This document shows, piece by piece, positions 43,783 through 64,000 of a stretch of 64,000 nt of DNA. Made by a program: the position numbers and the translations under genes. Each line of letters starts with the position of its first letter. Position 1 is the stretch's first letter. The notes below the pieces were generated by a model. It saw nothing but the letters and a program-made list of their open reading frames with translations. It did not search any database and was not told the origin of the DNA. The DNA is from Stigmatella ashevillena (lineage in GTDB: Bacteria; Myxococcota; Myxococcia; Myxococcales; Myxococcaceae), in assembly GCF_028368975.1 (NCBI RefSeq), contig NZ_JAQNDM010000002.1:7682425-7746424 (forward strand), in the 5' to 3' direction.

Positions 43783-43819
43783 CGCGCCCGCTTCAGGGGC
43801 CCCGGACCGGAGGGCTCGG

Positions 43820-44683: not shown

Positions 44684-44808
44684 GAAGAAGCGGGGGCGTG
44701 GCTCATTCGCTCACACGAGGGCTTATGACTTTGTGCACATGTCTCTTTTGACAAAGGTATGTACGGTTGGACCCATCACAGCGAGATGCATCACCAGGAG
44801 GTTTCACC

Positions 44809-45486: not shown

Positions 45487-45532
45487 CGCTGGGCTCGGGC
45501 GGCGGACCGGCATGAGCCTCCAGGAGGGAGGC

Positions 45533-46225: not shown

Positions 46226-46243
46226 GCGGCGGCTCCAGGGCTG

Positions 46244-46654: not shown

Positions 46655-46784
46655 GGTTGCTCCTGACGAAGAGTGGATGGCCGCGCAGCCGGGGCCGCGC
46701 GGAGCGCCTGGGACGCTAGCCCGGGCCCCGGCGGGTGGCTACACCGGCGGAGCTGTCCAACGCCCTGGGCCCCGCTCTCCCGGC

Positions 46785-47975
46785 TCAGGCCGGGATGAAC
46801 CGAAGCGGCAGGCTGTGGGGGCCCCGGACCGTGATGGCCTGACTCCAGGTGAGCTCCGCGGAGGTTCGCTGGAAGTGGCTGAAGCGGGAGAGCAGCGCCT
46901 CCAGGCCGCAGCGGGCCTCCAGCCGGGCCAGCTGCGCGCCAATGCAGTAGTGGGCGCCATACCCAAAGGAGAGGCTGGGCTGCTCGCGGTGGAGATCGAA
47001 CCGATCGGGCTCGGGGTATTGGCGCTCATCCCGGTTGGCCGAGGCGATGAGGGCGAGCACCACCTCTCCCTTGGGAATCGTCACTCCGGAGAGGGTGATG
47101 TCGGAGGTGACGATGCGCAACAGGGTTTGGACGGGAGCGTCGTAGCGCAACATCTCCTCGATGAACTTGGGGACCAGCGTGGGGTCTGCGCGCAAGCGCG
47201 CATACTCCGCGGGACGCTCCGCCAGAAAGAGCAGCGAGTTGGCCAGCAGGTGGACCGTGGTCTCCAGGCCCGCGACGAGCAGGAGCACCAGGAAGTCGAC
47301 GATCTCCTGGCTTGTCAAGGACTGTCCCTCCACCTCTGCGCGGACCAGATCGCTGACCAGATCATCTGCGGGCGAGCGGCGGCGGGCCTCGATGACCTCG
47401 GTGATGTAGCGCGTCGCGTCCGCGATCGAGGTCCGCGTGCGTTGGGCGTGCTCGGGATTCAGGGGCTCGGGGGTGACGCTGGCGAAGTCGTCCGACCAGC
47501 TCTTGAACCGATGATGGAGGGAGACGTCCAGCCCGAGCAGCTCACCGATGACGAAGGCCGGCAGCGGCATGGCGAACTGAGAGACGAAGTCCGCCTCTCC
47601 CTGCTGCGCCAACTCATCCGCGAGCCGGTGAGAGAGCTTCCGGATGCGGGCCTCCAGCCGCTGGATGGCGCTGGCGTTGAAGGCCCGGCTCACCAGGGTC
47701 CGCATCCGGGTGTGCCCTGCCCCGTCCGAGGCGATCATCGAGTTGGCCAGGGGGTTGTACCCCACCCACGCCGGCTGCCACGCCGCTTTGAAGCCCTGGG
47801 AAGAGAACAGCTGCGGGTTCTTGATGACGAAGGCCACGTCTTCATAGCGGGAGATGGCCCAGAACCCGGCGGGCTCTACCTGGATGACGGGGGCGTCGCG
47901 GCGCAACTGGGCATAGCCGGGATAGGGATTGGCCTGGAACTCAGGAGACAGGATGTTCACGCGTTGAGTCGTCAC
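46785..47975 (-). CDS. Cytochrome P450
   Basis: 396 residues from GTG 47975, with GGAG ten bases upstream; further in-frame residues upstream are not P450-like. The heme-ligand loop is FGYGAHYCIGAQLARLEA with the Cys near residue 345. The I-helix oxygen-activation motif reads LLVAGLETTVHLL, the ExxR pair is in EEMLRYDAPVQTLLR, and the N-terminus has SPEFQANPYPGYAQLRRDAP. Length and soluble character fit bacterial class I P450s, which need separate ferredoxin partners not found here. The substrate is unknown; neighbours do not form a recognisable biosynthetic cluster. Confidence 0.93.
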   Translation of the reverse strand: MTTQRVNILSPEFQANPYPGYAQLRRDAPVIQVEPAGFWAISRYEDVAFVIKNPQLFSSQGFKAAWQPAWVGYNPLANSMIASDGAGHTRMRTLVSRAFNASAIQRLEARIRKLSHRLADELAQQGEADFVSQFAMPLPAFVIGELLGLDVSLHHRFKSWSDDFASVTPEPLNPEHAQRTRTSIADATRYITEVIEARRRSPADDLVSDLVRAEVEGQSLTSQEIVDFLVLLLVAGLETTVHLLANSLLFLAERPAEYARLRADPTLVPKFIEEMLRYDAPVQTLLRIVTSDITLSGVTIPKGEVVLALIASANRDERQYPEPDRFDLHREQPSLSFGYGAHYCIGAQLARLEARCGLEALLSRFSHFQRTSAELTWSQAITVRGPHSLPLRFIPA

Positions 47976-48084
47976 GGAGGGTCTCCAGGTCTGCTCACCC
48001 TCGAGCGACCACAGGGAGCGGGTTCCACGGCAAGAGAATCCGCTCATACCTTATGTGTGATACTTCATCCAGGTGTCCTCAAAC

Positions 48085-48124
48085 GCCAATCCCCCCGGAG
48101 GGAAACCCTCCGAAGGGATTTGGC
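48085..48124 (-). terminator. Long hairpin between the lipoprotein and P450 genes
   Basis: CGGAGGG and CCCTCCG (48096-48112) form an inner stem with an AAA loop. AATCCC and GGGATT extend it across a 2x2 internal bulge, and GCC/GGC closes the base. It lies 37 bases after the minus-strand lipoprotein gene and probably ends its transcript before the P450 gene. Confidence 0.55.
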
Positions 48125-48161
48125 CTTGCCTACACCTCTTGGGGCGGAGGGGAGCCGGACC

Positions 48162-49121
48162 TCAGATCCGGGCCCGGCGGCGCATCAGGCCCAGCAGACC
48201 GACCAATCCCAGGCTCCACATCGCCAGGGTGGGACCGTTGGAGGCCGAGCAGCTGATGCCCTCCAACTCGCCCTGGGCCGCACCGTCCAGGCTCCAATTC
48301 ACGGTGGCCGTGGCGTCGCAGTCCGTGGCGCCGTCGTACTGGATTTCGACCTTGTGGCCATCCGTGGTGAGCGTCGTCTTGCCGGAGAGCGCCTCGGAGC
48401 CACACGTCTCGGAGTGAATCACCTCGTTCTGCGTCACCGCGGAGATGACCCCCGTGTCCCCGTAGCCGATGCGCCCCGAGCCATTCCAGGTGCTCGGCTC
48501 GGACTCATCCTCCGAACTCGCGCCGGAGGAGGACCCCTTGTAGTCCACGGCGGCGACCGTGGTTGTCTCCGCGCACGTCTGCTTATCCACCTCGGTGGTG
48601 TCCATGACGAGTTGGATCTCGAACCCCTGCGTCGTCTCGGTCCCCGACATCTTCAGGTTGCCATCGTAGACGAGCTTGCTCTTGGCGCTCTTCCCGTCAC
48701 AGGTCACGGTCTGGGAGTAGCCAAAGCCCGAATAGACATAGGTGATGCCCGCAGTGCTGATCTTCGTCTGCATCGAGCCCACCCACTCCACCCCATTCTT
48801 GTCGGTGCAGCCGCCCGTCACGCGCGAGGTGAGGCCCTCCTCGGAGGTAACAGGGCAGTTGGGATCTTCCTCTCCCCCGGTGGTCGGGCCCGAGGAGATG
48901 AGCGAGAGCGTATTGACCAACGTATAGATGTTGGGGGCACTGGCCTTGGTAGCCCAGTACTTCGCTTCCTCGCCATTGGCGAGCGAGCCCTTCTTGAAGC
49001 TGTCCAGCCGCGGAGCGGCGGGATTGGGCGTCTCCCCCGGATTCTCGGGATCCTTCGGATCATCGCCACACGCCACGAACAACCAGGACATCGCGACCAT
49101 GGACAACCAACGTGCTTGCAT
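48162..49121 (-). CDS. Lipoprotein with a C-terminal MYXO-CTERM-like anchor
   Basis: 319 residues from ATG 49121, preceded by GGGGGAGGG. The N-terminal lipoprotein signal ends in LFVAC (Cys18), followed by a Pro/Asp-rich spacer. The mature domain is beta-rich with six or more Cys (DPNCPVTSEEG, TGGCTDKNGVEW, QTCAETT, SETCGSEAL). The last 35 residues have a Cys-containing segment (GISCSASNGPT), a transmembrane stretch (LAMWSLGLVGLLGLM) and a terminal RRRARI, the plan of MYXO-CTERM sorting signals that are processed by a rhomboid-like myxosortase. Having both lipid and sorting anchors is odd. Function unknown. Confidence 0.75.
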   Translation of the reverse strand: MQARWLSMVAMSWLFVACGDDPKDPENPGETPNPAAPRLDSFKKGSLANGEEAKYWATKASAPNIYTLVNTLSLISSGPTTGGEEDPNCPVTSEEGLTSRVTGGCTDKNGVEWVGSMQTKISTAGITYVYSGFGYSQTVTCDGKSAKSKLVYDGNLKMSGTETTQGFEIQLVMDTTEVDKQTCAETTTVAAVDYKGSSSGASSEDESEPSTWNGSGRIGYGDTGVISAVTQNEVIHSETCGSEALSGKTTLTTDGHKVEIQYDGATDCDATATVNWSLDGAAQGELEGISCSASNGPTLAMWSLGLVGLLGLMRRRARI

Positions 49122-49446
49122 ACAACCCTCCCCCCGGAGTGAATCCGGGACCGTTGTGGAAAGCTCGCGGCGGTCACGGCATGAGCGGCAGGGTGAAGGG
49201 CCGGTCGGTGTCCGTCGCGGAGCAGCCTCATGACGCGACGAAGTGACCGGTATTCAATGCCCGTTCACACGATTCCGGGCACCGGCTCCTGGAGATCAAG
49301 AGCCGGATCCAGATGGATGATCCGGGATACCAGGACATCCGAGTTCTTACAGCGGATCCGGGCAAGTCGACGTGTGCACGGACTTGAGCCCCGAGGCCCT
49401 GCGCTCTGGGGCCCCTCCCCGTGGGGGGAGGGGCTTGAGCGTCGGG
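49122..49446. other. Intergenic region
   Basis: These 325 bases upstream of the MYXO-CTERM-type gene and downstream of the first giant gene hold the promoter for the former (not resolved) and a terminator-like hairpin for the latter (49411-49434). No credible gene was seen; short plus-strand open frames show no family likeness. Confidence 0.5.
49411..49434 (-). terminator. Perfect hairpin after the first giant lipoprotein gene
   Basis: GCCCCTCCCC and GGGGAGGGGC form a perfect 10-bp stem with a GTGG loop, 12 bases beyond the stop codon. A closely similar hairpin follows the second giant gene (56162-56187), so it was part of the duplicated unit. No T tract follows. Confidence 0.55.
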
Positions 49447-52400
49447 TCAGTGTGAGGAGAGAGCCAGCGGTTGAACCGGAGCGCGGAGGAGGGAAGGAGC
49501 GCAGAAGTCCCAGTCCCCGAGAGGATTGAGGTGCCCCTCGGCGTTGCCCGACAGGGACTTGGCATAGAGACCGCCATCGAAGCTGCCGTTCGTGAAGTTC
49601 ACGTGGGCGTTGGGAGCCAGCAGGGTGCCCCACAAGCTGTAGCGATTGGCATTGATGGAAGTGGCATCCACGAAGTTGAAGAGGACGCCCCGCTGATCGA
49701 TGCCGCCGCTGAAGGAATGTCCACCGGAGAGGGTGGCCGAGGCGCCCCGGATGTTGATCACAGCGAGGGAGCCAGTGGGAGCGTCGATGGACAGGAGCAC
49801 GGTGCCGGTGAAGTCACTGGCATTCACGTCGAAAACGTTCACAGAGGGCGAAGCGCCCGAGAGCATGAGACCGCCCCAAGACTCGCGGCGGGTGAGGCTG
49901 TTGGCGGGCAGGGAGGCCAGGCGGGTGGACAAGGTGCGGATCTGGGAGGCGCGGGTGGCGAAGTCCACGGGAGAGCCCTGGGAGGGAGCGCCGCGGACAT
50001 ACGTCACGTTGTTGGCCTTGTAGGTGCCGCCGTAAGCAGCATCGCCCCAGACGCCGCCCTGGGAGAGCGTCAGGTTGCCACCGGCCACCAGCACCGGCGC
50101 GGTGTCCGAGGGCGGCAGCTTCCAGCCCACGGAGAAGTTCGTCATGGAGATATTGCCGCCAGCGGCGACGCGGCCCTCCACATCGGTGCCCAGGGTGTAG
50201 TCCTCCAGGAGGAACACGTTGTAGTCATTGAGGTGGACGGAGATGTCGCTCTCGGTGACGGTGCGGGTGACGGGAGCCACGGCTTTGTTGCCGGAGGGAT
50301 CCTGCACGCTGTAGGTGATGGTGAAGGTGCCGGGCTTGCCCGGAACGGGTGCGCGAGTGGCCACGACGTGGCTGGTCAAGTTGCCCGCGCAGACATCGGT
50401 GGCAATGGCGCCCGGGTCGGCGTATTCGCCGCCGCAGGCAAAGGTGTCGGAGAGAGGGCCCTGAACGGCGATGGCGGGGGCGAGGGTGTCGCTCACGGTC
50501 ACGGTGCGGTTGACGGGGGTGGTCGTGTAGCCGCTCGGATCGGTCACGGAGTAGGAAACCGTCTGGGCGCCGAGGTGCTTGTTGTCGATGGAGCCTGAGC
50601 GCTGGACGGAGGCCGTCAAGTCACCGAAGCACAGATCGTTGGCGGTGGCGCCCGGGTCGGTGTACGGCGTGCCGCACTCCAGTGGCTGATGGGCAGGACC
50701 CACCAGGGCCAAGGCGGGAGGCAGGGTGTCCACCACGTTCACATCGCGAATCGCGGAGCTCTGCCGGCCGCTCTTGTCCGTGGCGGTGTAGTTGACCGCG
50801 TAGTTCCCCGGGATCGCCGGGTTGACGCTCGAGGAGTCCGCGACGACGGTCGAGGAACCGGAGCACAGGTCGTTGGCCGTGGCGCCGGGCTCCACGTACG
50901 TGTCGCGCTTGCACTCCAGGCTCATCGGGTTGTCACCCAGCAGGGTGATGGCGGGAGGCTGGGAGTCGTTCACCTGCACCGTGCGGGTGACCGTCGGCGA
51001 GGTGTTCCCGGCCATGTCCTGGGCGCTGTAGCTCAGGACGTAGTTGCCTGCCTTGGTGGTGTCCACATTGCCCGTCACCGTCACGGGCAGGTCGCCCGCG
51101 CACAGGTCCACCGCGAGGGCACCCGGATCCACGAAGGGCTCCGAGCACTCGACCGTGATGTAGTTCGGACCATTGAGCGAGATGCTGGGGGGCGTATCGT
51201 CGTCCACCTTCACCGTGCGGCTGACCGGCGAGGTGGCCGTGTTGCCGGCCGGATCCTGCACGCTGTAGGTGATGGTGAAGTTGCCCGGCTGGCCCGGGAC
51301 CGTGGTGCGCGTGGCGACCACGGCGCCCGTCAGGTTGCCGTAGCACAGGTCGTTGGCCGTGGCGCCCGGATCAGAGTACTCGCCGCCACACTCGAAGGTG
51401 TCGTTGAGAGGACCCTGGACGGTGATGACCGGCGCCAGCGAGTCGCTGACGTTCACCTCGCGGGTGACCGACGGCGCGCTCTGACCGGACGGATCCGACA
51501 CGTTGTAGATGACCGTGTAGAGGTTCGGCACGTTCGGGTTGACCGTGCCCGACCGGGTGATGCTAGCCGTCAGGTCTCCCACGCACGCGTCCTGCGCCGT
51601 GGCGCCCGGGTCGGTGTACGGCGTGCCGCACTCCAGGCCCTGCGTCGCGGGACCATTGAGCGCCAGCACCGGCGCCTCGTTGTCCTCCACGTGCACCGTG
51701 CGGCTCGAGGTGGACGTCGCCGTGTTGCCCGAGGGGTCCGTCACGCTGTAGCTGACGGTGAAGGAGCCCGGCTGGCCCGCGATCGGCGTGCGCGTGGCCA
51801 CGATGTTCGCCGTCAGGTCATCGGCGCACAGGTCGTTGGCCGTGGCACCGGGATCCACGTAGGTGGAGCCGCACTCGAACACCTGGTCGAGCGGACCGTT
51901 GACCGCGATGGTCGGCGCCAGCGAGTCGTCCACCGTCACCGTGCGGCTGACCGGCCCGGCGGTACGGCCGCCCGGATCCGACACGGTGTAGGAGACCGTC
52001 TGGGCACCGAGCTGCTTGTTATTGATGGAGCCCGTCCGCTGGATGGAGCCCGTCAGGTCGCCCGCGCACTGGTCATCCGCAGTGGCCCCCGGATCGTTGT
52101 ACGGCGTACCGCACTCCAGCGGCTGGTTGCCAGGGCCCAGCAGGGCCAGTTCTGGCGGCAGGGTGTCCTTGACCGTGACGGTGCGCCCGGTCCCGACGCC
52201 CGTGTTCCCCGAGGGGTCCGTGGCGCTGTAGGTGATGGCCACCACGCCCGGCACGGTAGGATCCACCGCAGTGCTCGGCACCGCGGGCAGGGTCCCCGCG
52301 CAGGCATCCTCCGCCGTCGCGCCCGGATCCTGGAACCCGCCGTCACCGCACTCCACGGCCAGCGAGGCCGGACCATTGACCGTGACCACCGGGGCCAGCG

Positions 52401-55400
52401 AGTCGCTCACCGCCACCGTGCGGCTGACCGGTGCGGCCGTGTGGCCTCCCGGATCCGCCACGTTGTAAGTCAGCGTGTAATTGCCCACCGCGCCCTGGTT
52501 GAGCGTGCCGGTGCGAACCACCTCGCCGGACAGATCGCCCGCGCACAGGTCGTTGGCCGTGGCACCCGGATCGCTGAACGGCGTGCCGCACTCCAGTCCC
52601 GCGGTGGCCGGACCGATGAGCGCCAGCGTAGGGCCCTGAGTGTCCTGCACCGTCACCGTGCGGTGGAGCGGCGCGGCAGCGTTGGCCGCCGAGTCGGTCA
52701 CGTTGTAGGTGAGCGTGTACTGGGCAGGCACCGCGGGGTCCACCGTGCCCGTCACGGTGATGTTCAGGTTGTCGTCGCACACGTCCTCGGCGATGGCGCC
52801 CGGGTCCGTGAAGGAGGTGCCGCACTCCAGGGGCAGGTTGGCCGGACCATTGAGGGCCAGCACCGGCGGCGTGTTGTCATCCGACTTCACCGTGCGGGTC
52901 ACAGGCGAAGCCACGCTGTTGCCCGATGGGTCCGTCACAGTGTAGGTGATGGTGAATCCGCCCGGGATGGAGGTCCTTGAGGGCACCACTGCGCTGGTTA
53001 GGTCGCCCGCGCACGCGTCGTTGGCCGTCGCGCCCGGATCCACGTAGGCGGCACCGCACTCGAACGTGTCGTTGGAATTCCCGTTGAGGGCGAGCACCGG
53101 CGCCAGCGTGTCGGACACCGTCACCGTGCGGTTGACGGGGGCAGGAGCACGGCCGCCCGGATCGGTCACGGTGTAGGTGATCGTCTGGGGGTTGGTGAGC
53201 AGCTTGTTGTCGATGGTGCCCGAGGTCTGGATGCGGCTGCTCACATCGCCGGCGCACTGGTCGTTGGCCGTAGCGCCCGGATCGTTGAACGGTGAGGCGC
53301 ACTCCAGCGGCAGGTTGGCCGGACCGTTGAGGGCCAGCGTCGGAGGCAGGGTGTCGGCCACCGTCACGATGCGGCTGGCGTCGGAAGTGACCGTGTTGCC
53401 GGAGGTGTCTTGCGCCGTGTACTTGATGCTGACGGTGCCCTCCTGGCCCGGATTGACGACGGTGGTCGGCACTGCGGGAACGGTCCCGATGCACGCGTCA
53501 TTGGCCGTGGCACCCGGGTCCACAAAGGGAGAGCCACCGCACTCGATGGAGGCGGCCAGAGGACCGGTCACCGTGATGAGGGGGGCCAGCGAGTCACCGA
53601 CGTTCACCGTGCGGCTCACCGCCGGAGCACTCTGCCCGGCCGGGTCGGTCACGTTGTAGGTGAGCGTCTGGGTGCCGAGCTGCTTGTTGTTGATGGCGCC
53701 CGTGACGGTGATGCGGTGGGTCACATCGCCGAAGCACGCATCGTTGGCGATGGCGCCGGGGTCCGCGTAGGGATTGCCGCACTCGAGTGCCTCGGTGGCG
53801 AGGCCCCGGAGCGCCAGCGTGGGCGGCGCGTTGTCGTCCACCGTCACATGGCGGGTGGTGGGGGACGTGACGCTGTTGCCCGAGGGGTCCGTGGCGCTGT
53901 AGCTGATGATGAAGGAGCCCGGCTGGTTGGCATCCCCCACTTGGGTGGCCGTGACTGGCACGGCGCCGACGCAGGCGTCATTGGCCGTGGCACCCTGATC
54001 TGTATAGGGCGCGCCACACTCGAAGGAGTCCTCGAGCGGCCCGGTGATGGTGATGACCGGCGCCAGCGTGTCGTCCACTTCCACCGTGCGGCTGATCTCC
54101 GGGGCCTTGTTTCCCTCGGGATCCTGCACGTTGTACTGGATGGGGTAGGTGCCCAGCACGGCGGTGTTCACCGAGCCGGTCTGGACGATGGCTGAGTTGA
54201 GATTGCCCGCGCACACATCACTGGCCGTGGCGCCCGGGTCGACGTATGGAGAGGCGCACTCGGCCGAGGTATTGGCCAGACCGTTGAGGGCCAGAGTCGG
54301 CGGCTGCGTGTCCGACACCGCTACGGTGCGCTTCACCGGGGTGGCCGCGTTACCCGAGGTATCCTTCACGTTGTAGGTCAGCTCGTAATGGCCCACCGCG
54401 CCCGGGTTGACCGAGCCGCTCACGGCCACCTTGCTAGACAGATTTCCTTCGCAGACATCCGCAGCGGTGGCACCCGGATCGGCGTAGGTGCCAGGAGCGC
54501 ACTCGAGCTGCTCGTTCCCACCCACCAGGGTCAGCGTGGGAGCGTTCTTGTCGAGCACGGTGATGGTGGCGGAGCACGAGTCGGTATTGCCCTTCGAATC
54601 GGTGCAGGTGAGGGTGACGGTGGTGGTCCCCACGGGATAAGGACCGATGGGACGCTGCTGGCAGCCGATCAGGTCCTCATCCGGGTCCCAAGACCCATCA
54701 TTGACCGTGCCGTCCGCGCCGCAGGTGAGGTTCGCGACGAGTTCGAGATTCTTGCAGATGGCGTCGGGAGGTGAATCGGTTTCGAAGTTGGGGAGCTTGC
54801 AGAACTCGGTGCAGGCCCCGATGGAGCCGCTGGCATCCTCAGCGCGGCCATTGAGGATGCCATCGTCGCACTCTTCCCCATGTTCCGCGTCCACATGGCC
54901 ATCGCCGCACCACTGCTGCTGGCAGGAGAACGAGCATGTCTGATCGGCCGGGGTTCCGGGCACCGCCGGCCGACCGTTGCCCTCAAGGCCCTGTTCACAT
55001 GCCAGCCCGGCCAGGCCAATGCCACAGCCCGAGCTGAGGGCCATGGCGCCGTTCGTCACGATGTACGGGGTACCAGTGTAGACCTTCGGATTCCCATCAT
55101 CGTCCGTCTCGAGCCACTCCATGTACGAACTCGTATTGGGCAGCGTCCCCGACGAGTCCACGGCGAGGGCCACGGGGGCGAAGGTGTTCTGCGGGTAGCT
55201 GCTGAACACCGCGCGTGTCACACAGCCCTTGGCGCCACCCAGGGCACCGTCGTTCGAGACAAGACCATCCGAGAGCAAGGACGGCTCCATCTGGAAGATG
55301 TGGCCGCCGCTGGCGTAGCACCCTGTGCCTGCTACGGTGAAGTCGCCGAACGGCTTCAGCAGGGGCACTGGGGTATTCGGGGCCACGTTCTGATAGGCGC

Positions 55401-55908
55401 AGCCCAACGAGATGTACATACCAGTCCGGGCCGGCTGCGCGACAATGTAGGAGACGGCGTTCTCAAGGAACTGAGGCGTCCCGTTGTTCGTGGTGTCTGA
55501 GCCGGTGATGACGACGTTGCCGTCGACGGCAGCGCCCCAGATGTTGCTGTTGTCGATGGCGGCCTGCACCGCGCTCGTATCGCCCTGGCAAGCCGTATCC
55601 CCGATGATGATGCCGTTGTACTTCTGGAAATCCTCTGGCGTCATCGCCTTCCACTGCGCGGGCGTGACGATGGTGACCGGAAAGCCCCGGTTCGTCGCGG
55701 CCTGCGCCTCCCGGCTGGCCTGCCCGCCAGTGACGGTCGTACCGAGAATCAGCACCTTGCCGGTGGGATTGGCCTCTTGCCGGAGGGTGCGCGCTGTCGC
55801 CGGGGTCGGCTGTTTCAGCGGCGCGCCCTGGTCCTTGTCGCAGGAAAGAGCAAGGGCAGACAGAGCGACAAAGAGGACGCAAGAGCTTTTGATTTCGGCC
55901 CGCCGCAC
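49447..55908 (-). CDS. Giant modular surface lipoprotein, copy 1 (18 Ig-like modules, choice-of-anchor-A C-terminus)
   Basis: 2153 residues from GTG 55908, with AAGGAG five bases upstream. A lipoprotein-like signal ends in ALALSC (Cys23). Residues about 50-270 look like a flavodoxin/glutamine-amidotransferase-type alpha/beta fold (KVLILGTTVTGGQASREA, NGIIIGDTACQG, NVVITGSDTTNNG). About 330-390 hold a Myxococcus Cys-rich disulfide repeat (WCGDGHVDAEHGEECDDG), followed by an HYR-like module. Then 18 DUF5011-like Ig modules of about 79 residues follow, each with ECG.PY.DPGATA.D.C.G and a final SRTV.V.D. The last 260 residues are a choice-of-anchor-A domain (YNVFLLEDYTLGTDVEGRVA, GGLYAKSLSGNAEGHLNPLG). 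It is a probable long surface stalk or adhesin. Its paralogue lies directly upstream. Confidence 0.9.
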   Translation of the reverse strand: MRRAEIKSSCVLFVALSALALSCDKDQGAPLKQPTPATARTLRQEANPTGKVLILGTTVTGGQASREAQAATNRGFPVTIVTPAQWKAMTPEDFQKYNGIIIGDTACQGDTSAVQAAIDNSNIWGAAVDGNVVITGSDTTNNGTPQFLENAVSYIVAQPARTGMYISLGCAYQNVAPNTPVPLLKPFGDFTVAGTGCYASGGHIFQMEPSLLSDGLVSNDGALGGAKGCVTRAVFSSYPQNTFAPVALAVDSSGTLPNTSSYMEWLETDDDGNPKVYTGTPYIVTNGAMALSSGCGIGLAGLACEQGLEGNGRPAVPGTPADQTCSFSCQQQWCGDGHVDAEHGEECDDGILNGRAEDASGSIGACTEFCKLPNFETDSPPDAICKNLELVANLTCGADGTVNDGSWDPDEDLIGCQQRPIGPYPVGTTTVTLTCTDSKGNTDSCSATITVLDKNAPTLTLVGGNEQLECAPGTYADPGATAADVCEGNLSSKVAVSGSVNPGAVGHYELTYNVKDTSGNAATPVKRTVAVSDTQPPTLALNGLANTSAECASPYVDPGATASDVCAGNLNSAIVQTGSVNTAVLGTYPIQYNVQDPEGNKAPEISRTVEVDDTLAPVITITGPLEDSFECGAPYTDQGATANDACVGAVPVTATQVGDANQPGSFIISYSATDPSGNSVTSPTTRHVTVDDNAPPTLALRGLATEALECGNPYADPGAIANDACFGDVTHRITVTGAINNKQLGTQTLTYNVTDPAGQSAPAVSRTVNVGDSLAPLITVTGPLAASIECGGSPFVDPGATANDACIGTVPAVPTTVVNPGQEGTVSIKYTAQDTSGNTVTSDASRIVTVADTLPPTLALNGPANLPLECASPFNDPGATANDQCAGDVSSRIQTSGTIDNKLLTNPQTITYTVTDPGGRAPAPVNRTVTVSDTLAPVLALNGNSNDTFECGAAYVDPGATANDACAGDLTSAVVPSRTSIPGGFTITYTVTDPSGNSVASPVTRTVKSDDNTPPVLALNGPANLPLECGTSFTDPGAIAEDVCDDNLNITVTGTVDPAVPAQYTLTYNVTDSAANAAAPLHRTVTVQDTQGPTLALIGPATAGLECGTPFSDPGATANDLCAGDLSGEVVRTGTLNQGAVGNYTLTYNVADPGGHTAAPVSRTVAVSDSLAPVVTVNGPASLAVECGDGGFQDPGATAEDACAGTLPAVPSTAVDPTVPGVVAITYSATDPSGNTGVGTGRTVTVKDTLPPELALLGPGNQPLECGTPYNDPGATADDQCAGDLTGSIQRTGSINNKQLGAQTVSYTVSDPGGRTAGPVSRTVTVDDSLAPTIAVNGPLDQVFECGSTYVDPGATANDLCADDLTANIVATRTPIAGQPGSFTVSYSVTDPSGNTATSTSSRTVHVEDNEAPVLALNGPATQGLECGTPYTDPGATAQDACVGDLTASITRSGTVNPNVPNLYTVIYNVSDPSGQSAPSVTREVNVSDSLAPVITVQGPLNDTFECGGEYSDPGATANDLCYGNLTGAVVATRTTVPGQPGNFTITYSVQDPAGNTATSPVSRTVKVDDDTPPSISLNGPNYITVECSEPFVDPGALAVDLCAGDLPVTVTGNVDTTKAGNYVLSYSAQDMAGNTSPTVTRTVQVNDSQPPAITLLGDNPMSLECKRDTYVEPGATANDLCSGSSTVVADSSSVNPAIPGNYAVNYTATDKSGRQSSAIRDVNVVDTLPPALALVGPAHQPLECGTPYTDPGATANDLCFGDLTASVQRSGSIDNKHLGAQTVSYSVTDPSGYTTTPVNRTVTVSDTLAPAIAVQGPLSDTFACGGEYADPGAIATDVCAGNLTSHVVATRAPVPGKPGTFTITYSVQDPSGNKAVAPVTRTVTESDISVHLNDYNVFLLEDYTLGTDVEGRVAAGGNISMTNFSVGWKLPPSDTAPVLVAGGNLTLSQGGVWGDAAYGGTYKANNVTYVRGAPSQGSPVDFATRASQIRTLSTRLASLPANSLTRRESWGGLMLSGASPSVNVFDVNASDFTGTVLLSIDAPTGSLAVINIRGASATLSGGHSFSGGIDQRGVLFNFVDATSINANRYSLWGTLLAPNAHVNFTNGSFDGGLYAKSLSGNAEGHLNPLGDWDFCAPSLLRAPVQPLALSSH
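50250..54545 (-). repeat. Array of 18 Ig-like (DUF5011-like) coding modules, copy 1
   Basis: Each unit of roughly 235-240 bases encodes P-x-(L/I)-(A/T)-(L/V)-x-GP, a Cys, (Y/F)xDPGA, a second Cys about 18 residues on, and a YxVxDPSGN/RTVxVxD end. Neighbouring units alternate between 'TVxGP' and 'ALxGP' types, and many fall into a recurring four-unit order. The paired Cys suggest one disulfide per module. Confidence 0.85.
52640..54080 (-). repeat. Near-identical module block shared with the other giant gene, here encoding modules 3-8
   Basis: About 1.44 kb that matches 57481-58923 almost base for base. In this gene the block encodes modules 3-8 of 18 (VITITGPLEDSFECG through the start of module 9). 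In the other gene the same block encodes modules 11-16. Outside the block the aligned modules differ much more. The edges were set by eye. Confidence 0.8.
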
Positions 55909-56076
55909 AGAGACTCCTTGGAAAAGACAGAGAAAAGGCAAAGCTGTCCAAGACCAAGGAGACCCGGAGATGTGAAGTTATGCACGATTCGCACGAATAC
56001 GGTTGCTGGCGCTGAGTCCCTGGATGGGCGCGCGACGGTAAGGCCCAGTGCCCGCAGCCATTGCCAGACAGTACGG
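55909..56076 (-). repeat. Duplicated leader/promoter segment of the first giant gene
   Basis: These bases match 62662-62829 with only scattered changes, including the ribosome binding site and the stretch GAGATGTGAAGTTATGCACG (plus strand). The duplication therefore covered the upstream control region of the giant genes as well as the coding part. Confidence 0.75.
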
Positions 56077-56077
56077 A

Positions 56078-56149
56078 GAGGGAAGCGCTCTCGATGGGTG
56101 GGTTTGAGCGCAACCTCTCAGCTCCCGCCAGGTGCTCCGTCTCTTGGCT
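56078..56149 (+). pseudogene. Remnant of a Ser/Thr kinase gene (duplicated copy)
   Basis: In one plus-strand frame the 72 bases read EGSALDGWV, a TGA stop, then AQPLSSRQVLRLLA. The intact kinase downstream of the second giant gene reads EGKSLDGWARAQPLSSGQVF and RVLA at 63222-63293. The same residues occur in the same order with a stop codon replacing Arg. The rest of the kinase gene is gone on both sides. It lies at the same place relative to its giant gene as the intact kinase does, so it is the decayed partner of the duplicated unit. Confidence 0.8.
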
Positions 56150-56161
56150 CCGCTCCGTGGC

Positions 56162-56187
56162 GCCCCTCCCTTCGTGGAGGGAGGGGC
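56162..56187 (-). terminator. Perfect hairpin after the second giant lipoprotein gene
   Basis: GCCCCTCCCT and AGGGAGGGGC form a perfect 10-bp stem with a 6-base loop, 12 bases beyond the stop codon of the second giant gene. It is the counterpart of the hairpin at 49411-49434, with compensating change at the stem's inner pair (C-G there, T-A here), which supports a selected structure. Confidence 0.6.
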
Positions 56188-56199
56188 AGGAGCGTGAGG

Positions 56200-59100
56200 T
56201 CAGTGAGTAGAGGAGAGCGCCCAGGGTTGGGCCTGAGGGCGGAGGAGGGAGGGAATGCAAATGTCCCAGTCGCCGAGAGGATTGAGGTGACCTTCTGCAT
56301 TGCCAGAGAGAGACTTGGCGTAGAGGCCGCCATCGAAGCTGCCGTTCGTGAAGTTCACGTGAGCGTTGGGAGCCAGCAGGGTGCCCCACAAGCTGTAGCG
56401 GTTGGCATTGATGGAAGTGGCATCCACGAAGTTGAAGAGGACACCGCGCTGGTCGATGCCGCCGCTGAAGGAATGTCCGCCAGAGAGGGTGGCCGATGCG
56501 CCCCGGATGTTGATGACGGCCAGGGAGCCAGTGGGAGCATCGATGGACAGGAGTACGGTGCCGGTGAAGTCGCTGGCATTGACGTTGAAGACATTCACAT
56601 GAGGAGAGGAGCCAGTGAGCATGAGGCCGCCCCAGGACTCGCGGCGGGTGAGGCTGTTGGCGGGCAGGGAGGCCAGCTGAGAGGACAGGGTGCGGACCTG
56701 GGAGGCGCGGGTGGCGAAGTCCACGGGAGAGCCCTGGGAGGGAGAGCCGCGGACGTACGTCACGTTGTTGGCCTTGTAGGTGCTGCCGTAAGCAGCATCG
56801 CCCCAGACGCCGCCCTGGGAGAGCGTCAGGTTGCCACCGGCCACCAGCACCGGAGCGGTGTCGTAGGCAGGCAGGTTCCAGCCCACGGAGAAGTTCGTCA
56901 TGGAGATATTGCCGCCAGCGGCGACACGGCCCTCCACATCGGTGCCCAGGGTGTAGTCCTCGGTGAGGAAGACGTTGTAGTCATTGAGGCGGACGGAGAT
57001 GTCGCTCTCGGTGACGGTGCGGGTGACGGGAGCCACGGCTTTGTTGCCGGAGGGATCCTGGACGCTGTAGGTGATGGTAAAGGTGCCGGGTTTGCCCGGG
57101 ACGGGTGCGCGAGTGGCCACGACGTGGCCGGTCAAGTTGCCCGCGCAGACATCGGTGGCAATGGCGCCCGGGTCGGCGTATTCGCCGCCGCAGGCAAAGG
57201 TGTCAGAGAGAGGGCCCAGGACTGCGATGGCGGGGGCGAGGGTGTCGCTGACGGCCACAGTGCGGTTGACGGGGGTTGCGGAAAAGCCAGAGGGATCCTG
57301 AACGGAGTAGGAGAGTGTCTGGAGGCCGAGCTGCGTGTTGTCGATGGCGCCTGAGCGCTGGATGGAAGCCGTCAAGTCACCGAAGCACAGGTCGTTGGCG
57401 GTGGCACCCGGGTCGGTGTACGGCGTGCCGCACTCCAGCCCCGCAGTGGCAGGACCGTTGAGGGTCAGCGTCGGGCCCTGCGTGTCCTGCACCGTCACCG
57501 TGCGGTGGAGCGGCGCGGCAGCGTTGGCCGCCGAGTCAGTCACGTTGTAGGTGAGCGTGTACTGGGCAGGCACCGCAGGGTCCACCGTACCCGTCACGGT
57601 GATGTTCAGGTTGTCGTCGCACACGTCCTCGGCGATGGCGCCCGGGTCCGTGAACGAGGTACCGCACTCCAGGGGCAGGTTGGCCGGACCATTGAGGGCC
57701 AGCACCGGCGGCGTGTTGTCATCCGACTTCACCGTGCGGGTCACAGGCGAAGCCACGCTGTTGCCCGATGGGTCCGTCACAGTGTAGGTGATGGTGAATC
57801 CGCCCGGGATGGAGGTCCTTGAGGGCACCACTGCGCTGGTTAGGTCGCCCGCGCACGCGTCGTTGGCCGTCGCGCCCGGATCCACGTAGGCGGCACCGCA
57901 CTCGAACGTGTCGTTGGAATTCCCGTTGAGGGCGAGCACCGGCGCCAGCGTGTCGGACACCGTCACCGTGCGGTTGACGGGGGCAGGAGCACGGCCGCCC
58001 GGATCCGTCACGGTGTAGGTGATCGTCTGGGGATTGGCGAGCAGCTTGTTGTCGATGGTGCCCGAGGTCTGGATGCGGTTGCTCACATCGCCGGCGCACT
58101 GGTCGTTGGCCGTGGCGCCCGGATCGTTGAACGGCGAGGCGCACTCCAGGGGCAGGTTGGCCGGGCCCAGCAGGGCCAGCGTCGGCGGCAGGGTGTCGGC
58201 CACCGTCACGATGCGGCTGGCGTCCGAAGTGGCCGTGTTGCCGGAGGTGTCCTGAGCCGTGTACTTGATGCTGACGGTGCCCTCCTGGCCCGGATTGACG
58301 ACGGTGGTCGGCACCGCGGGAACGGTCCCGATGCACGTGTCATTGGCCGTGGCGCCCGGATCCACATAGGGAGCGCCACCGCACTCGATGGTGGCGGCCA
58401 GAGGACCGGTCACCGTGATGACGGGGGCCAGCGAGTCACCGACGTTCACCGTACGGCTCACCGCCGGAGCACTCTGCCCGGCCGGGTCGGTCACGTTGTA
58501 GGTGAGCGTCTGGCTGCCGAGCTGCTTGTTGTTAATGGAGCCCGTGACGGTGATGCGGTGGGTCACATCGCCGAAGCACGCATCGTTGGCGATGGCGCCG
58601 GGGTCCGCGTAGGGATTGCCACACTCGAGTGCCTCGGTGGCGAGGCCCCGGAGCGCCAGCGTGGGCGGAGCGTTGTCGTCCACCGTCACATGGCGGGTGG
58701 TGGGGGACGTGACGCTGTTGCCCGAGGGGTCGGTGGCGCTGTAGCTGATGATGAAGGAGCCCGGCTGGTTGGCATCCCCCACCTGGGTGGCCGTGACCGG
58801 CACGGCGCCAACGCAGGCGTCATTGGCCGTGGCACCCTGATCCGTGTAGGGCGCGCCACACTCGAAGGAGTCCTCGAGCGGCCCGGTGATGGTGATGACC
58901 GGCGCCAGCGTGTCGTCCACTGCCACCGTGCGGCTGGCGGAGGCTGTACGGCCCGACGGGTCCGTCACGCTGTAGCCCAGCACGTGGTTGCCGAGCTGCT
59001 TGTTGTTGACCGTGCCCGTCTTGACGATGTCATCGGTCAGGTCGCCCGCGCACTGGTCGTTGGCCGTGGCGCCCGGGTCGTTGAACGGCGAGGCGCACTC

Positions 59101-62100
59101 CAGCCCCATGGCGGCATCACCCAACAGGGTCAGCGCCGGAGGCAGGGTGTCCTGCACGTTGACGGTGCGGCCCGTGGCCGAGACGCCCGTGTTGCCCGAG
59201 GGGTCCGTGGCGCTGTAGGTGACAGTCACCGCGCCTGGCTGGCCCGGGTTCACCGCGGGGCTGGCCACCGTCGGCAGTGCACCGGCGCACGCATCGTTCG
59301 CCGTGGCGCCCGGATCGTTGAACGGCCCGCTGTTGCACTCGACGTTCACGGAGGCGGGACCCGTCACCGTCACCACAGGCTTCTGGGTGTCGGCGACGTT
59401 CACCTGGCGGGAGACAGACGGAGCGCTCAGGCCCGCGATGTCCGTCACGTTGTAGGTGACCGTGTAGCTGTTCGGCACGTTCGGATCGACCGTGCCTGTC
59501 ACGGTGATGCGGTCGTTGATGTCCTCGGTGCACACATCGCTGGCGAGGGCGCCCAGGTCATTGTACGGCGTGGCGCACTCCACGGCCTGAACGGCAGGGC
59601 CCGTGAGAGCCAGCACCGGCGGCGTATTGTCGCCCGACTTCACCGTGCGGCGGGTGGGCGACGTCACCGTATTGCCCGAGGGATCCGTCACGCTGTAGGT
59701 GATGGTGAAGGCACCCGGCTGGCCGGGGACCGGCGTCCGCGTGGACACGATCTCGCCCGTCAGGTCGTCAGCGCACAGATCGTTGGCCGTGGCACCGGGA
59801 TCCACGTAGGCCGAGCCGCACTCGAACGTCTGATTGAGCGGACCGTTGACCGTGATGGCCGGCGCCAGGGTGTCATCCACCGTCACCGTGCGGGTGACCG
59901 GCCCGGCGGTACGTCCACCCGGATCCTGCACGGTGTAGGAGAGGCTCTGAGCGCCGAGCTGCTTGTTGTTGATGGAGCCCGTCTTCTGGATGGCGGCCGT
60001 CAGGTTGCCGAAGCACTGGTCGTTGGCCGTGGCCCCCGGATCCGTGAACGGCGTACCGCACTCCAGGCCCTGCGGCCCAGGCGTCAGGGTCAGCGTCGGC
60101 GGCAGCGTGTCCGCCACCGTGACGGTGCGGCCCGTGGCCGACGTTCCCACGTTGCCCGAGGAGTCCGTGGCCTTGTAAGTGACGGTCACCGCGCCCGGCA
60201 CGGTCGGATCCACCTCGTCGCTCGGAACCACCGCCAGCGCGCCTTCGCACGCATCGTTGGCCGTGGCGCCCGGATCGTCATAGTTGCCGCTGCCGCACTC
60301 GATCTGCTGCGACAGCTCGCCCTGGACCGTGACGGTCGGCGCCAGCGTGTCCCGGACCGTTACCGCGCGGTCGGCCGAGGCGCTGCGGCCACTCGGATCC
60401 TGCACGGTGTAGTGGAGCGTCTGGGTGCTGAGGTGGCGGTTGTCGATGGTGCCCGTCTTCTGGATGGAGCCCGTCAGGTCTCCGGCGCACACGTCGCTGG
60501 CCGAAGCACCGGGATCCACGAAGGGCGTGGCGCACTCCAGGTTCTGCGCACCACCCGCCAGGGTCAGCGTCGGAGGCAGGGTGTCTTCCACCGTGACGGT
60601 GCGGCCCGTGGCCGAGACGCCCGTGTTCCCCGAGGGGTCCGTGGCGCTGTAGGTGATGGTCACCGTGCCCGGCTGATTCGGATTCACAGTGGAGTTCTGG
60701 TCCGTCGACAGGATACCGGCGCACGCATCGTTGGCCGTGGCCCCCTCATCGTTGTACTCGCCGGTGCCGCACTCGAATTTCACGTTGGTGGGACCGTTCA
60801 CCGTCACCGTGGGTTTCAGCGTGTCCTTTACCTCGACGACTCGGCTGATCTCCGGGGCCTTGTTTCCCTCGGGATCCTGCACGTTGTACTGGATGGGGTA
60901 GGTGCCCAGCGCGGCGGTGTTCACCGAGCCCGTCTTGACGATGGCCGAGTCGAGGTTGCCCGCGCACACGTCACTGGCCGTGGCCCCCTGATCGGTGTAG
61001 GGCGAGGCGCACTCGGCCGTGGTGTTGGCCAGACCCTTGAGCGCCAAGGTCGGCTTCTGCGTGTCCGACACCGCCACGGTGCGCTTCACCGGGGTGGCCG
61101 CGTTGCCCGAGGTATCCTTCACGTTGTAGGTCAGCTCGTAATGGCCCACCGTGCCCGGCTTCACCGAGCCGCTCACGGTCACCTTGCTGGACAAGTTTCC
61201 TTCGCAGATATCCGCAGCGGTGGCGCCCGGATCGGCGTAGGTGCCAGGAGCGCACTCGAGCTGCTGGTTGCCGCCCACCAGGGTCAGCGTGGGCGTGTTC
61301 GTGTCGAGCACGGTGATGGTGGCGGAGCAGGAGTCGGTATTGCCCTTCGAGTCGGTGCAGGTGAGGGTGACGGTGGTCGTCCCCACGGGGTAAGGACCGA
61401 TGGGACGCTGCTGGCAGCCAATCAGGTCCTCATCCGAGTCCCAGGAGCCATCGTTGACCGTGCCGTCCGCGCCGCAGGTGAGGTCCGCGACGAGTTCGAG
61501 ATTCTTGCAGATGGCGTCAGGCGGCTCGTCGGTCTCAAGAACGGGAATCTTGCAGAACTGGGTGCAAGTCCCGATGGAGCCGCTGGCGTCCCCACTGCGT
61601 CCATTGAAGAAACCCTCGTCGCACTCTTCCCCATGTTCCGCATCCACATGGCCGTCACCGCACCACTGCTGCTGGCAGGAGAACGAGCACGTCTGCTCGG
61701 GCGGGGTTCCTGGCACCGCCGGTTTGCCGTTGCCCTCCAGGCCCTGTTCACACGCCAACCCAGCAGCGCCAATGCCACAACCCGAGCTGAGGGCCATGGC
61801 GCCGTTCGTCACGATGTACGGGGTACCGGTGTAGGCCTTCGGATTCCCATCATCGTCCGTCTCGAGCCACTCAAAATACGAACTCGTATTGGGCAGCGTC
61901 CCCGACGAGTCCACGGCGAGGGCCACGGGGGCGAAGGTGTTCTGCGGGTAGCTGCTGAACACCGTGCGCGTCACACAGCCCTTGGTACCGCCCAGGGCAC
62001 CATCGTTCGAGACGAGACCGTCCGAGAGCAAGGACGGCTCCATCTGAAAGATGTGGCCGCCGCTGGCGTAGCACCCCGTGCCTGCCACGGTGAAGTCGCC

Positions 62101-62661
62101 GAACGGCTTCAGCAGGGGCACCGGCGTATTCGGGGCGGCGTTCTGATAGGCGCAGCCCAGCGAGATGTACATACCGGTCCGGTCCCCCACCGCGACGATG
62201 GAGGAGACGGCGTTCTCAAGGAACTGAGGCGTCCCGTTGTTCGTGGTGTCCGAGCCGGTGATGACGACGTTGCCGTCGACGGCGGCGCCCCAGATGTTGC
62301 TGTTGTCGATGGCGGCCTGAATCGCGCTCGTATCGCCCTGGCAGGCCGCATCCCCGATGATGATGCCGTTGTACTTCTGGAAATCCTCCGGCGTCATCGC
62401 CTTCCACTGCGCGGGCGTGGCGATGGTGACCGGATAGCCCCGGTTCATCGCGGCCTGTGCCTCCCGGCTGGCCTGCCCACCGGTGACGGTCGTGCCGAGA
62501 ATCAGCACCTTATTGGTGACATTGGCCTCTTGTCGGACGGTGCGCGCTGTCGCCGGTGCCGACTTCATCAGCGGCGTGCCCTGGTCCTTGTCACAGGAGA
62601 GAGAAAGAGCAGACAGAGCGACAATGAGGACGCAAGAGCTTTTGATTTCGGCCCGCTGCAC
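56200..62661 (-). CDS. Giant modular surface lipoprotein, copy 2 (18 Ig-like modules, choice-of-anchor-A C-terminus)
   Basis: 2153 residues from GTG 62661, exactly the length of its neighbour, with the same AAGGAG site. The signal ends in ALSLSC (Cys23). The N-terminal alpha/beta fold, the disulfide repeat (WCGDGHVDAEHGEECDEG), the HYR-like module and the C-terminal choice-of-anchor-A domain are nearly identical to copy 1. The 18 Ig-like modules between them are partly different: modules 3-10 are diverged types with their own order, while 11-16 copy modules 3-8 of the other protein. It diverges from a Ser/Thr kinase gene. A cell-surface role in contact or matrix binding is likely by architecture; no ligand can be named. 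Confidence 0.9.
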   Translation of the reverse strand: MQRAEIKSSCVLIVALSALSLSCDKDQGTPLMKSAPATARTVRQEANVTNKVLILGTTVTGGQASREAQAAMNRGYPVTIATPAQWKAMTPEDFQKYNGIIIGDAACQGDTSAIQAAIDNSNIWGAAVDGNVVITGSDTTNNGTPQFLENAVSSIVAVGDRTGMYISLGCAYQNAAPNTPVPLLKPFGDFTVAGTGCYASGGHIFQMEPSLLSDGLVSNDGALGGTKGCVTRTVFSSYPQNTFAPVALAVDSSGTLPNTSSYFEWLETDDDGNPKAYTGTPYIVTNGAMALSSGCGIGAAGLACEQGLEGNGKPAVPGTPPEQTCSFSCQQQWCGDGHVDAEHGEECDEGFFNGRSGDASGSIGTCTQFCKIPVLETDEPPDAICKNLELVADLTCGADGTVNDGSWDSDEDLIGCQQRPIGPYPVGTTTVTLTCTDSKGNTDSCSATITVLDTNTPTLTLVGGNQQLECAPGTYADPGATAADICEGNLSSKVTVSGSVKPGTVGHYELTYNVKDTSGNAATPVKRTVAVSDTQKPTLALKGLANTTAECASPYTDQGATASDVCAGNLDSAIVKTGSVNTAALGTYPIQYNVQDPEGNKAPEISRVVEVKDTLKPTVTVNGPTNVKFECGTGEYNDEGATANDACAGILSTDQNSTVNPNQPGTVTITYSATDPSGNTGVSATGRTVTVEDTLPPTLTLAGGAQNLECATPFVDPGASASDVCAGDLTGSIQKTGTIDNRHLSTQTLHYTVQDPSGRSASADRAVTVRDTLAPTVTVQGELSQQIECGSGNYDDPGATANDACEGALAVVPSDEVDPTVPGAVTVTYKATDSSGNVGTSATGRTVTVADTLPPTLTLTPGPQGLECGTPFTDPGATANDQCFGNLTAAIQKTGSINNKQLGAQSLSYTVQDPGGRTAGPVTRTVTVDDTLAPAITVNGPLNQTFECGSAYVDPGATANDLCADDLTGEIVSTRTPVPGQPGAFTITYSVTDPSGNTVTSPTRRTVKSGDNTPPVLALTGPAVQAVECATPYNDLGALASDVCTEDINDRITVTGTVDPNVPNSYTVTYNVTDIAGLSAPSVSRQVNVADTQKPVVTVTGPASVNVECNSGPFNDPGATANDACAGALPTVASPAVNPGQPGAVTVTYSATDPSGNTGVSATGRTVNVQDTLPPALTLLGDAAMGLECASPFNDPGATANDQCAGDLTDDIVKTGTVNNKQLGNHVLGYSVTDPSGRTASASRTVAVDDTLAPVITITGPLEDSFECGAPYTDQGATANDACVGAVPVTATQVGDANQPGSFIISYSATDPSGNSVTSPTTRHVTVDDNAPPTLALRGLATEALECGNPYADPGAIANDACFGDVTHRITVTGSINNKQLGSQTLTYNVTDPAGQSAPAVSRTVNVGDSLAPVITVTGPLAATIECGGAPYVDPGATANDTCIGTVPAVPTTVVNPGQEGTVSIKYTAQDTSGNTATSDASRIVTVADTLPPTLALLGPANLPLECASPFNDPGATANDQCAGDVSNRIQTSGTIDNKLLANPQTITYTVTDPGGRAPAPVNRTVTVSDTLAPVLALNGNSNDTFECGAAYVDPGATANDACAGDLTSAVVPSRTSIPGGFTITYTVTDPSGNSVASPVTRTVKSDDNTPPVLALNGPANLPLECGTSFTDPGAIAEDVCDDNLNITVTGTVDPAVPAQYTLTYNVTDSAANAAAPLHRTVTVQDTQGPTLTLNGPATAGLECGTPYTDPGATANDLCFGDLTASIQRSGAIDNTQLGLQTLSYSVQDPSGFSATPVNRTVAVSDTLAPAIAVLGPLSDTFACGGEYADPGAIATDVCAGNLTGHVVATRAPVPGKPGTFTITYSVQDPSGNKAVAPVTRTVTESDISVRLNDYNVFLTEDYTLGTDVEGRVAAGGNISMTNFSVGWNLPAYDTAPVLVAGGNLTLSQGGVWGDAAYGSTYKANNVTYVRGSPSQGSPVDFATRASQVRTLSSQLASLPANSLTRRESWGGLMLTGSSPHVNVFNVNASDFTGTVLLSIDAPTGSLAVINIRGASATLSGGHSFSGGIDQRGVLFNFVDATSINANRYSLWGTLLAPNAHVNFTNGSFDGGLYAKSLSGNAEGHLNPLGDWDICIPSLLRPQAQPWALSSTH
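57003..61298 (-). repeat. Array of 18 Ig-like (DUF5011-like) coding modules, copy 2
   Basis: The unit structure is the same as in copy 1. Modules 3-16 read as two types followed by three rounds of a four-type order: one with 'VNPGQxG...YxAxDxSGN', one with 'NNKQLG', one with 'TRTxxPGxFTITY', one with 'VTGTVDPxVP'. This higher-order repeat suggests growth of the array by duplication of four-module blocks. Confidence 0.8.
57481..58923 (-). repeat. Near-identical module block shared with the other giant gene, here encoding modules 11-16
   Basis: This is the partner of 52640-54080. The offset between the two blocks is about 4.84 kb, whereas the offset between the genes is exactly 6753 bases, so the block does not sit at the equivalent place in the two genes. 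Confidence 0.8.
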
Positions 62662-62829
62662 AGAGACTCCTTGGAAAAGACAGAGAAAAGGCAAAGCTGT
62701 CCAAGACCAAGGAGACCCGGAGATGTGAAGTTATGCACGATTCGCGCGAATACTATTGCTGGCGCTGAGTCCTTGGATGGGCGAGCGACGGTGAGGTCCA
62801 GCGCCCACAGCCATTGCCAGACAATACGG
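62662..62829 (-). repeat. Duplicated leader/promoter segment of the second giant gene
   Basis: This is the partner of 55909-56076. Similarity stops near 62830, beyond which this copy continues into the intact kinase gene while the other copy jumps to the kinase remnant. The segment must hold the promoters for the giant gene (minus) and perhaps for the kinase (plus). Confidence 0.7.
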
Positions 62830-62921
62830 GACTACCCACAAGGCAGGGCTGACAGGCCGTGACTCAGGGAGTAGGGTGCGGGATAGTGGCGTGAACCCAT
62901 TCACCCTCCGAGCCTCACTCT

Positions 62922-64000
62922 ATGGACACAGCTCTTCCAGAAAACCTTTCCCCTGGCACCATCCTGGGACCTTGGCGTCTGACATGTCGTGCTGGCAGAG
63001 GCGCTTACGGCGCCATCTACCGGGCCGAGAGGGTGGGGCAGGAGGCGGCGGGGCCAGTGGCCCTCAAACTCTCCCTGCACTCTCGTGAAGAACGCTTCGA
63101 GCGCGAAGCAGAGGTGCTGTCTCGGGTTCGTCACCCAGGGATTCCTCGTCTGCTCGACAGAGGTGAGTGGGTCGGCGGTCCTTGGAGGGTGGCCTATCCC
63201 TATCTCGTCATGGATTGGGTGGAGGGAAAATCCCTCGATGGGTGGGCTCGGGCGCAACCGCTCAGCTCAGGCCAGGTGTTCCGTGTCTTGGCGCAACTCA
63301 GCCGTGCCCTCCAGGCGGCGCACGAGGCGCACTGTCTGCACCGGGACGTCAAAGGGGACAATGTCCTCGTGGGGCCGGACGGACGGGTCTTCCTGGTGGA
63401 CTTCGGCTGCGGGACGTACCCGGAGGCTTCTCCTCTCACGGTCGGCCCTCTGGCTCCGGGGACGCTGCCCTATCGGAGCCCCCAATCCCTTCGCCACCAA
63501 TGGGCTCATCGGAAGGATGGGGCCTCTTATGAGGCCGGGCCGGAGGACGATGTGTATGCGTTGGGTGTCACCGCCTATCGCCTGGTCACTGGGATGTACC
63601 CTCCTCCGGGAACGGCTCTGGAAGCGAGGCAGGGAGAGCGCCGTGAAGTCCGGCCCCTCCGGCAACCGGCTCACAAACTGGTTCCTTGGGTGAGTCCAGG
63701 GCTCTCGGCCCTCATTGAGCGGATGTTGGACGAGGCGCCTGAGGCGAGGGGCCGCGCCCGCGAGTTGGCGGAGGCGCTGGAGGCGGAGGCCGCCAGTGCG
63801 GGCTCTGAAGCGGAAGTCTCTCCGAAGCCCTTCGAGGCCATCCGCCTGGAGTCAGCCCTGCCTCCAAAGCCACCCGGCAGGCGCGCGCCCGTGTGGGCCG
63901 CTCTGGCCGCAACGGGCTTGGTGGGCATGGGGACTTGGCACTTGTCCAAGGGGGCGCTCCATGGCCTCGCGGGCCTGGGGCCCCTGGAGGCGATGAAGGT
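62922..64000 (+). CDS. Ser/Thr protein kinase (partial, runs off the right edge)
   Basis: 359 residues are visible from ATG 62922. The Hanks-type kinase domain (about 15-275) has a glycine loop GRGAYGAIYRAE, the ATP Lys in GPVALKLSLHS, the catalytic loop HRDVKGDNVLV, the magnesium motif VDFGCG (DFG), PGTLPYRSPQ as the activation/APE-like segment and DDVYALGVTAYRLVTG. All catalytic residues are present. A proline-rich linker leads to a probable membrane span (VWAALAATGLVGMGTW, about 330-345), so an extracytoplasmic C-terminal part should follow outside the window. It diverges from the giant lipoprotein gene by 260 bases, and a decayed copy lies beside the other giant gene, hinting at a functional link. 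Confidence 0.92.
   Translation, partial: MDTALPENLSPGTILGPWRLTCRAGRGAYGAIYRAERVGQEAAGPVALKLSLHSREERFEREAEVLSRVRHPGIPRLLDRGEWVGGPWRVAYPYLVMDWVEGKSLDGWARAQPLSSGQVFRVLAQLSRALQAAHEAHCLHRDVKGDNVLVGPDGRVFLVDFGCGTYPEASPLTVGPLAPGTLPYRSPQSLRHQWAHRKDGASYEAGPEDDVYALGVTAYRLVTGMYPPPGTALEARQGERREVRPLRQPAHKLVPWVSPGLSALIERMLDEAPEARGRARELAEALEAEAASAGSEAEVSPKPFEAIRLESALPPKPPGRRAPVWAALAATGLVGMGTWHLSKGALHGLAGLGPLEAMK

Follow-up and report, generated by a model that had tools for sequence, protein, structure and literature searches.

A Dead Kinase Gene Remnant in the Spacer Between Two Giant Surface-Protein Genes of Stigmatella ashevillena

Structure of the Locus

The window, by which we mean the whole stretch of 64,000 nucleotides that was analysed (G000:C2:7682425-7746424), comes from a genome of 10.95 Mb, referred to here as G000. 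Read along the plus strand, the features of interest follow each other in the order giant gene 1, a 258-base spacer, giant gene 2, a second spacer and a kinase gene. These and the elements between them are as follows.

49402..49441, minus strand: hairpin 3' of giant gene 1, matching that of giant gene 2; the homology of the 3' flanks starts three bases outside it (49399 / 56148)
49447..55941, minus strand: giant gene 1, 2164 aa, encoding repeats of the bacterial surface Ig-like and HYR types and, at the C-terminus, a putative ice-binding-like adhesive domain
55942..56076, plus strand: spacer beside copy 1, aligning with 62695-62829; differences 1/59 (55942-56000) and 9/76 (56001-56076)
56078..56148, plus strand: kinase relic, homologous to kinase codons 101-124, with one in-frame stop; it lacks the kinase start and all remaining parts of the gene
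56151..56194, minus strand: stable hairpin 3' of the stop codon of giant gene 2 (-33.8 kcal/mol, z -5.5); the relic stops three bases outside it
56200..62694, minus strand: giant gene 2, 2164 aa, with the architecture of gene 1 and another choice of repeats
62830..63221, plus strand: segment missing beside copy 1, 392 bases, comprising kinase upstream DNA and kinase codons 1-100
62922..64000, plus strand: intact kinase gene, 453 aa, with a Pkinase domain; it extends past the window end and is complete in the extended locus L020

The C-terminal domain of the giant proteins was identified as pAdhesive_15 in a Pfam search, and a cysteine at residue 34 was noted by reading the sequence. The two genes are identical in length (2164 aa) despite their differing repeat content. 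A third giant copy (L017:11090-19642), which encodes 2850 aa and is located about 0.87 Mb away, shares 96% identity with copy 2 across 5215 bases.

The intact kinase was matched by the profile PF00069 with 97 bits, against a curated cut-off of 31.7. At least 151 kinase matches were obtained in the 10.95 Mb genome, a count that is rather a lower bound since 150 of 306 candidates were scored, and in which one gene may yield two matches. A block at 62848-62877, upstream of the kinase, could be recognised by eye upstream of each of the eight related kinase genes for which upstream DNA was inspected and is possibly a promoter of this subfamily; it falls in the segment that is absent beside copy 1.

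A Kinase Fragment Beside Giant Gene 1

The segment at 56078-56148 is a dead 71-base remnant of the kinase gene lying next to giant gene 2 in divergent orientation. It aligns without gaps to the intact kinase at 63222-63292, with identity at 59 of 71 positions (59/72 if the full 56078-56149 is set against 63222-63293). Frame 1 of 56078-56149 reads EGSALDGWV, a TGA stop codon and then AQPLSSRQVLRLLA, the counterpart in the intact kinase at 63222-63293 being EGKSLDGWARAQPLSSGQVFRVLA. The original prediction of a kinase remnant in the spacer between the giant genes, with a translation interrupted by a stop and matching 63222-63293, is thereby borne out, with the correction that this reading had left out the V that precedes the stop as well as the final residues. 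Besides the stop, the disabling changes include the loss of codons 1-100 and of anything recognisable past codon 124, local alignment having revealed no kinase base beyond that codon beside giant gene copy 1. The motifs in the intact protein that we take to be HRD and DFG fall outside codons 101-124.

Chance similarity might be invoked to account for the match, given that the stretch is short, but this is highly improbable in view of the scores. Alignment of 56078-56199 with the kinase region gave a score of 82, as compared with a mean of 22 (sd 2.6) and a maximum of 38 when 1000 shuffles that approximately preserve dinucleotides were scored, and with a maximum of 48 among 1608 control segments taken from both strands of the first 49 kb of the window. 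In a search of the whole genome with the 71 relic bases, the best match besides themselves was the neighbouring kinase, at 83% identity over the full length (E 1.8e-14), and the runners-up were 41-base matches at two places (E 0.0012). A base-by-base comparison with 12 kinases also identified the neighbouring kinase as the nearest sequence (83%), followed by its ortholog in G005, the nearest relative compared (79%).

The remnant was predicted to lie at the place beside copy 1 that corresponds to the kinase beside copy 2, and the alignment agrees. The DNA at 53001-56076 is alignable with copy-2 DNA up to 62829; the 392 bases at 62830-63221 are without a counterpart, and the relic follows. At the other end, base 56148 is both the last relic base homologous to the kinase and the first base of the homology between the 3' flanks of the giant genes (56148/49399). 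Microhomology at the junctions, checked by eye, amounts to a few bases at most. No match was found when a plasmid collection was searched with the 258-base spacer.

The Locus in Related Genomes

The relative G005 belongs to the same genus and is the sole relative with this kinase among those compared. It contains the giant gene pair and an intact kinase (77.7% amino acid identity) that diverges from copy 2. The spacer between its giant genes is 1011 bases long. A decayed insertion sequence of IS4/5 type (L060:7496-8232), 737 bases long with inverted ends and a match to Pfam DUF4096, is located in this spacer, and another stretch of about 160 bases matches neither the kinase region nor the left flank. 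A sensitive search for a kinase relic in this spacer, with the insertion left out, gave nothing above shuffles in four comparisons; tblastx of the spacers produced many weak scattered matches and was used for the G000 relic alone. In G004, the giant pair occupies the same interval, a short-chain dehydrogenase gene is found at the expected place of the kinase, and the 19.5 kb examined contain no kinase. A relic was not detectable in the spacers of the two pair-sharing relatives found, G005 and G004, of which that of G005 is disturbed.

Other relatives have different contents at this place. In G001, the interval holds a cytochrome P450 gene and the succinate dehydrogenase membrane subunit gene, together with dehydrogenase-type and regulator-type genes (both by reading of the translations), and neither a kinase (profile search) nor a giant gene match (tblastn) was found in 6 kb of sequence. 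The distance between the left-flank gene and the right flank is about 100 bases in G002 and G003 and about 2 kb in G006. The interval by the succinate dehydrogenase membrane subunit gene (43000-49446 plus the right flank in L020) thus varies in content among the relatives (P450, dehydrogenase, giant genes, kinase), as would be expected of an insertion-prone site.

Kinase Neighbours in the Giant Gene Family

The presence of the remnant had also been taken to suggest that the kinase and the giant protein belong together functionally. With the first 450 residues of the giant protein as query, we examined 98 genomes and retained 62 family members from 18 of them, with E values from 0 to 1.1e-57; weaker matches, which were short or covered mainly the repeat end, were dropped. 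At least 2.5 kb of upstream DNA was examined for all 62 members with a kinase profile that recovered 8 of 8 control loci, these being its own building sequences and so showing only that the profile works.

A divergent kinase adjoins two of the 62 members, namely copy 2 of G000 and copy 2 of G005, which represent one orthologous locus. Kinase sequences of any kind within 3 kb were found at 4/62 sites, the two further ones both being co-oriented, namely a decayed piece (G006) and a kinase (G041). About 3/62 would be expected by chance, assuming the kinase density of G000 in all genomes, and kinase neighbours are therefore not enriched. The decayed piece in G006 (L066:8680-8832) is about 150 bases long and lies about 1.9 kb upstream of the giant gene, with a gene in between that is amidohydrolase-like by reading.

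Apart from the sister locus in G005, no conserved pairing was observed elsewhere among the 62 members from 18 genomes. A functional partnership of the kinase and the giant protein is not supported by these comparisons, because the divergent pairing is confined to a single orthologous locus and the giant pair in G004 is without a kinase. Rather, the comparison with the relatives points to a bystander role for the kinase, which is a member of a very large kinase family in this genome.

Age of the Giant Genes and Their Flanks

In view of copy-specific repeat blocks that the two genomes have in common at corresponding positions, the giant gene pair is probably older than the split between G000 and G005. 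The blocks of copy 1 are common to G000c1 2851-5100 and G005c1 1891-4144 (85-95%), and those of copy 2, at G000c2 1651-3700, are shared with G005c2 (86-95%). Both sets of blocks also occur in the third giant copy, and the pattern could in principle have been sampled twice from this copy, which is a weaker alternative to an old pair.

The front ends of the genes show another pattern. Within the first 1500 bases, 101 sites group the copies by genome, 7 by position and 4 crosswise, from which it follows that the front ends were homogenised within each genome at a later time. In a tree of 11 N-terminal sequences, the copies group by genome, including the third copy, with supports of 0.995 for G000, 0.978 for G005 and 0.838 for G004. 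The N-terminal region of the third copy is 92.7% identical to copy 2 of its own genome, as compared with 85.7% to its positional counterpart in G005, a pattern of similarity that points to gene conversion between distant loci.

The 76 non-coding bases beside the relic differ at 9/76 positions within G000 and at 23/76 and 23/76 positions between the two G000 copies and G005, and both G000 copies are without 10 bases that are present in G005. Of the 26 informative sites in this segment, 18 join the two copies of G000, for which p is 0.0002 if a clock-like three-way split is assumed. From these differences and informative sites, we infer that the split from G005 preceded the copying or homogenisation of the flank beside gene 1. 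The first 59 spacer bases, with 1 difference versus 21/147 for the remainder including the relic (Fisher p 0.006), form a younger tract.

With the relic sites added to the non-coding segment, 26/44 informative sites join the G000 copies (p 0.0004, or 0.01 if the G005 branch evolved 1.36 times faster); for the relic alone, the informative sites are divided 8, 5 and 5 among the three groupings (8/18, p 0.22). Topology tests on the kinase sites gave AU p values of 0.51 for the relic with G000, 0.62 for the relic with G005 and 0.09 for a position outside both, a slight preference for the G005 kinase that does not decide between them. When the non-coding segment was added, the values were 0.83, 0.24 and 0.08, respectively, none of the topologies being rejected at 0.05. 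FastTree placed the relic with the G000 kinase (support 0.785). The simplest reading is that the relic most likely arrived with the re-copied flank; its own 71 bases cannot date it.

Discussion

We lean toward the hypothesis, which we consider somewhat more probable than all others combined, that the relic was left by a later re-copying of the upstream flank of gene 2 beside gene 1, in the G000 lineage after the split from G005. This origin is suggested because G005 has the kinase without a detectable relic, and because the flank differs at 9/76 positions within G000 versus 23/76 to G005. The copied tract, placed beside giant gene 1, would have included the spacer and no fewer than 371 bases from the start of the kinase. 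One possible mechanism is gene conversion, with a tract that entered through the near-identical gene starts and was terminated by end joining beside the hairpin; another is amplification of gene 2 together with the kinase start, after which the product collapsed with gene 1. The surplus piece of kinase, being functionless, would then have lost 392 bases including the start and gained a stop, and what remains would now do no more than fill the space that separates the end of gene 2 from the upstream side of gene 1. As a limit on this model, homogenisation may have ended near 56076 and left an older relic in place, and a relic in G005 could have been lost, given the insertion sequence and the roughly 160 unexplained bases in its spacer.

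Two other scenarios place the origin of the relic in the duplication that founded the pair. The original prediction was that a whole unit of giant gene and kinase had been duplicated and that one kinase was then mostly deleted. The part of this proposal that stands is that the copied DNA once ran into the kinase, in agreement with the presence of the relic and its flank at the corresponding place; a whole kinase is not needed, because no kinase base past codon 124 is recognisable beside copy 1 and a breakpoint inside the gene therefore suffices. The absence of such sequence is in itself compatible with copying of the whole kinase as well as of a part of it, but the former requires an extra deletion. 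The original tandem duplication may instead have broken inside the kinase, the unit consisting of the hairpin, the giant gene, the spacer and the first 371 or so kinase bases, so that the relic is the truncated end of the unit at the junction, later minus 392 bases. Two events suffice for this, and base 56148, which ends the relic and opens the 3'-flank homology at 49399, is placed as at a head-to-tail junction, although the same geometry would result from a later deletion or end joining.

Both scenarios are difficult to reconcile with the timing, in that the pair in G005 has no detectable relic, the pair in G004 has no kinase and, in the flanking DNA, the G000 copies share an ancestor younger than the split from G005, all of which speak against a relic dating from the founding duplication. 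For the whole-unit duplication, there is the additional problem that the kinase at the locus split from the paralogue in L018 inside the G000/G005 lineage in a nucleotide tree of 12 kinases (support 0.996), a split for which the protein tree of the same kinases is not resolving (0.538). We therefore regard a breakpoint inside the kinase as a minority possibility, perhaps one chance in a handful, and the duplication of the whole unit as slightly less probable again. Retention of the relic for a function, for example within a promoter or terminator serving the giant genes, is very unlikely: it does sit between a stable hairpin and a block upstream of gene 1 with a near-identical counterpart in copy 2, but the block (about 55942-56000) and the hairpin are both outside the relic, and the matching spacers in G005 and G004 show no kinase sequence.

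The locus is one of fast-recombining surface-protein genes, and the relic is no more than ordinary gene debris within it. Pseudogene relics in the form of gene fragments are known at the boundaries of duplications and gene conversions, and here, too, a short, stop-bearing piece of an intact neighbour is found at a recombination boundary. There is no difference in principle, the host in this case being a giant, repeat-rich surface-protein pair with strong homogenisation. More speculatively, and with a probability that we place well below one half, the relic could be a fossil of recombination overshoot, whereby homogenisation copies single-copy flanks outward until it is terminated by end joining at the 3' hairpin, and neighbouring genes are repeatedly sampled as spacer fragments.

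A review describes extensive duplication of kinase genes in some lineages, with paralogues that are often nearby (PMC8538405). The intact kinase resembles the myxobacterial Ser/Thr kinases of such lineage-specific duplications in belonging to a large family, whereas the extra copy here is a fragment beside the flank of another gene, without a second kinase. A real relic can thus mislead, in that it seemed to link the kinase to the giant genes, yet the relatives indicate a bystander.

As in the concerted evolution of tandem or dispersed copies, the giant gene copies group by genome though their positions predate the species split, with the difference that a third copy with other ends, about 0.87 Mb away, is included in the process. 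The locus is a clear example of this mode of evolution, in which the copy-specific repeat arrays have been retained while the front ends and spacers have been homogenised in each genome.
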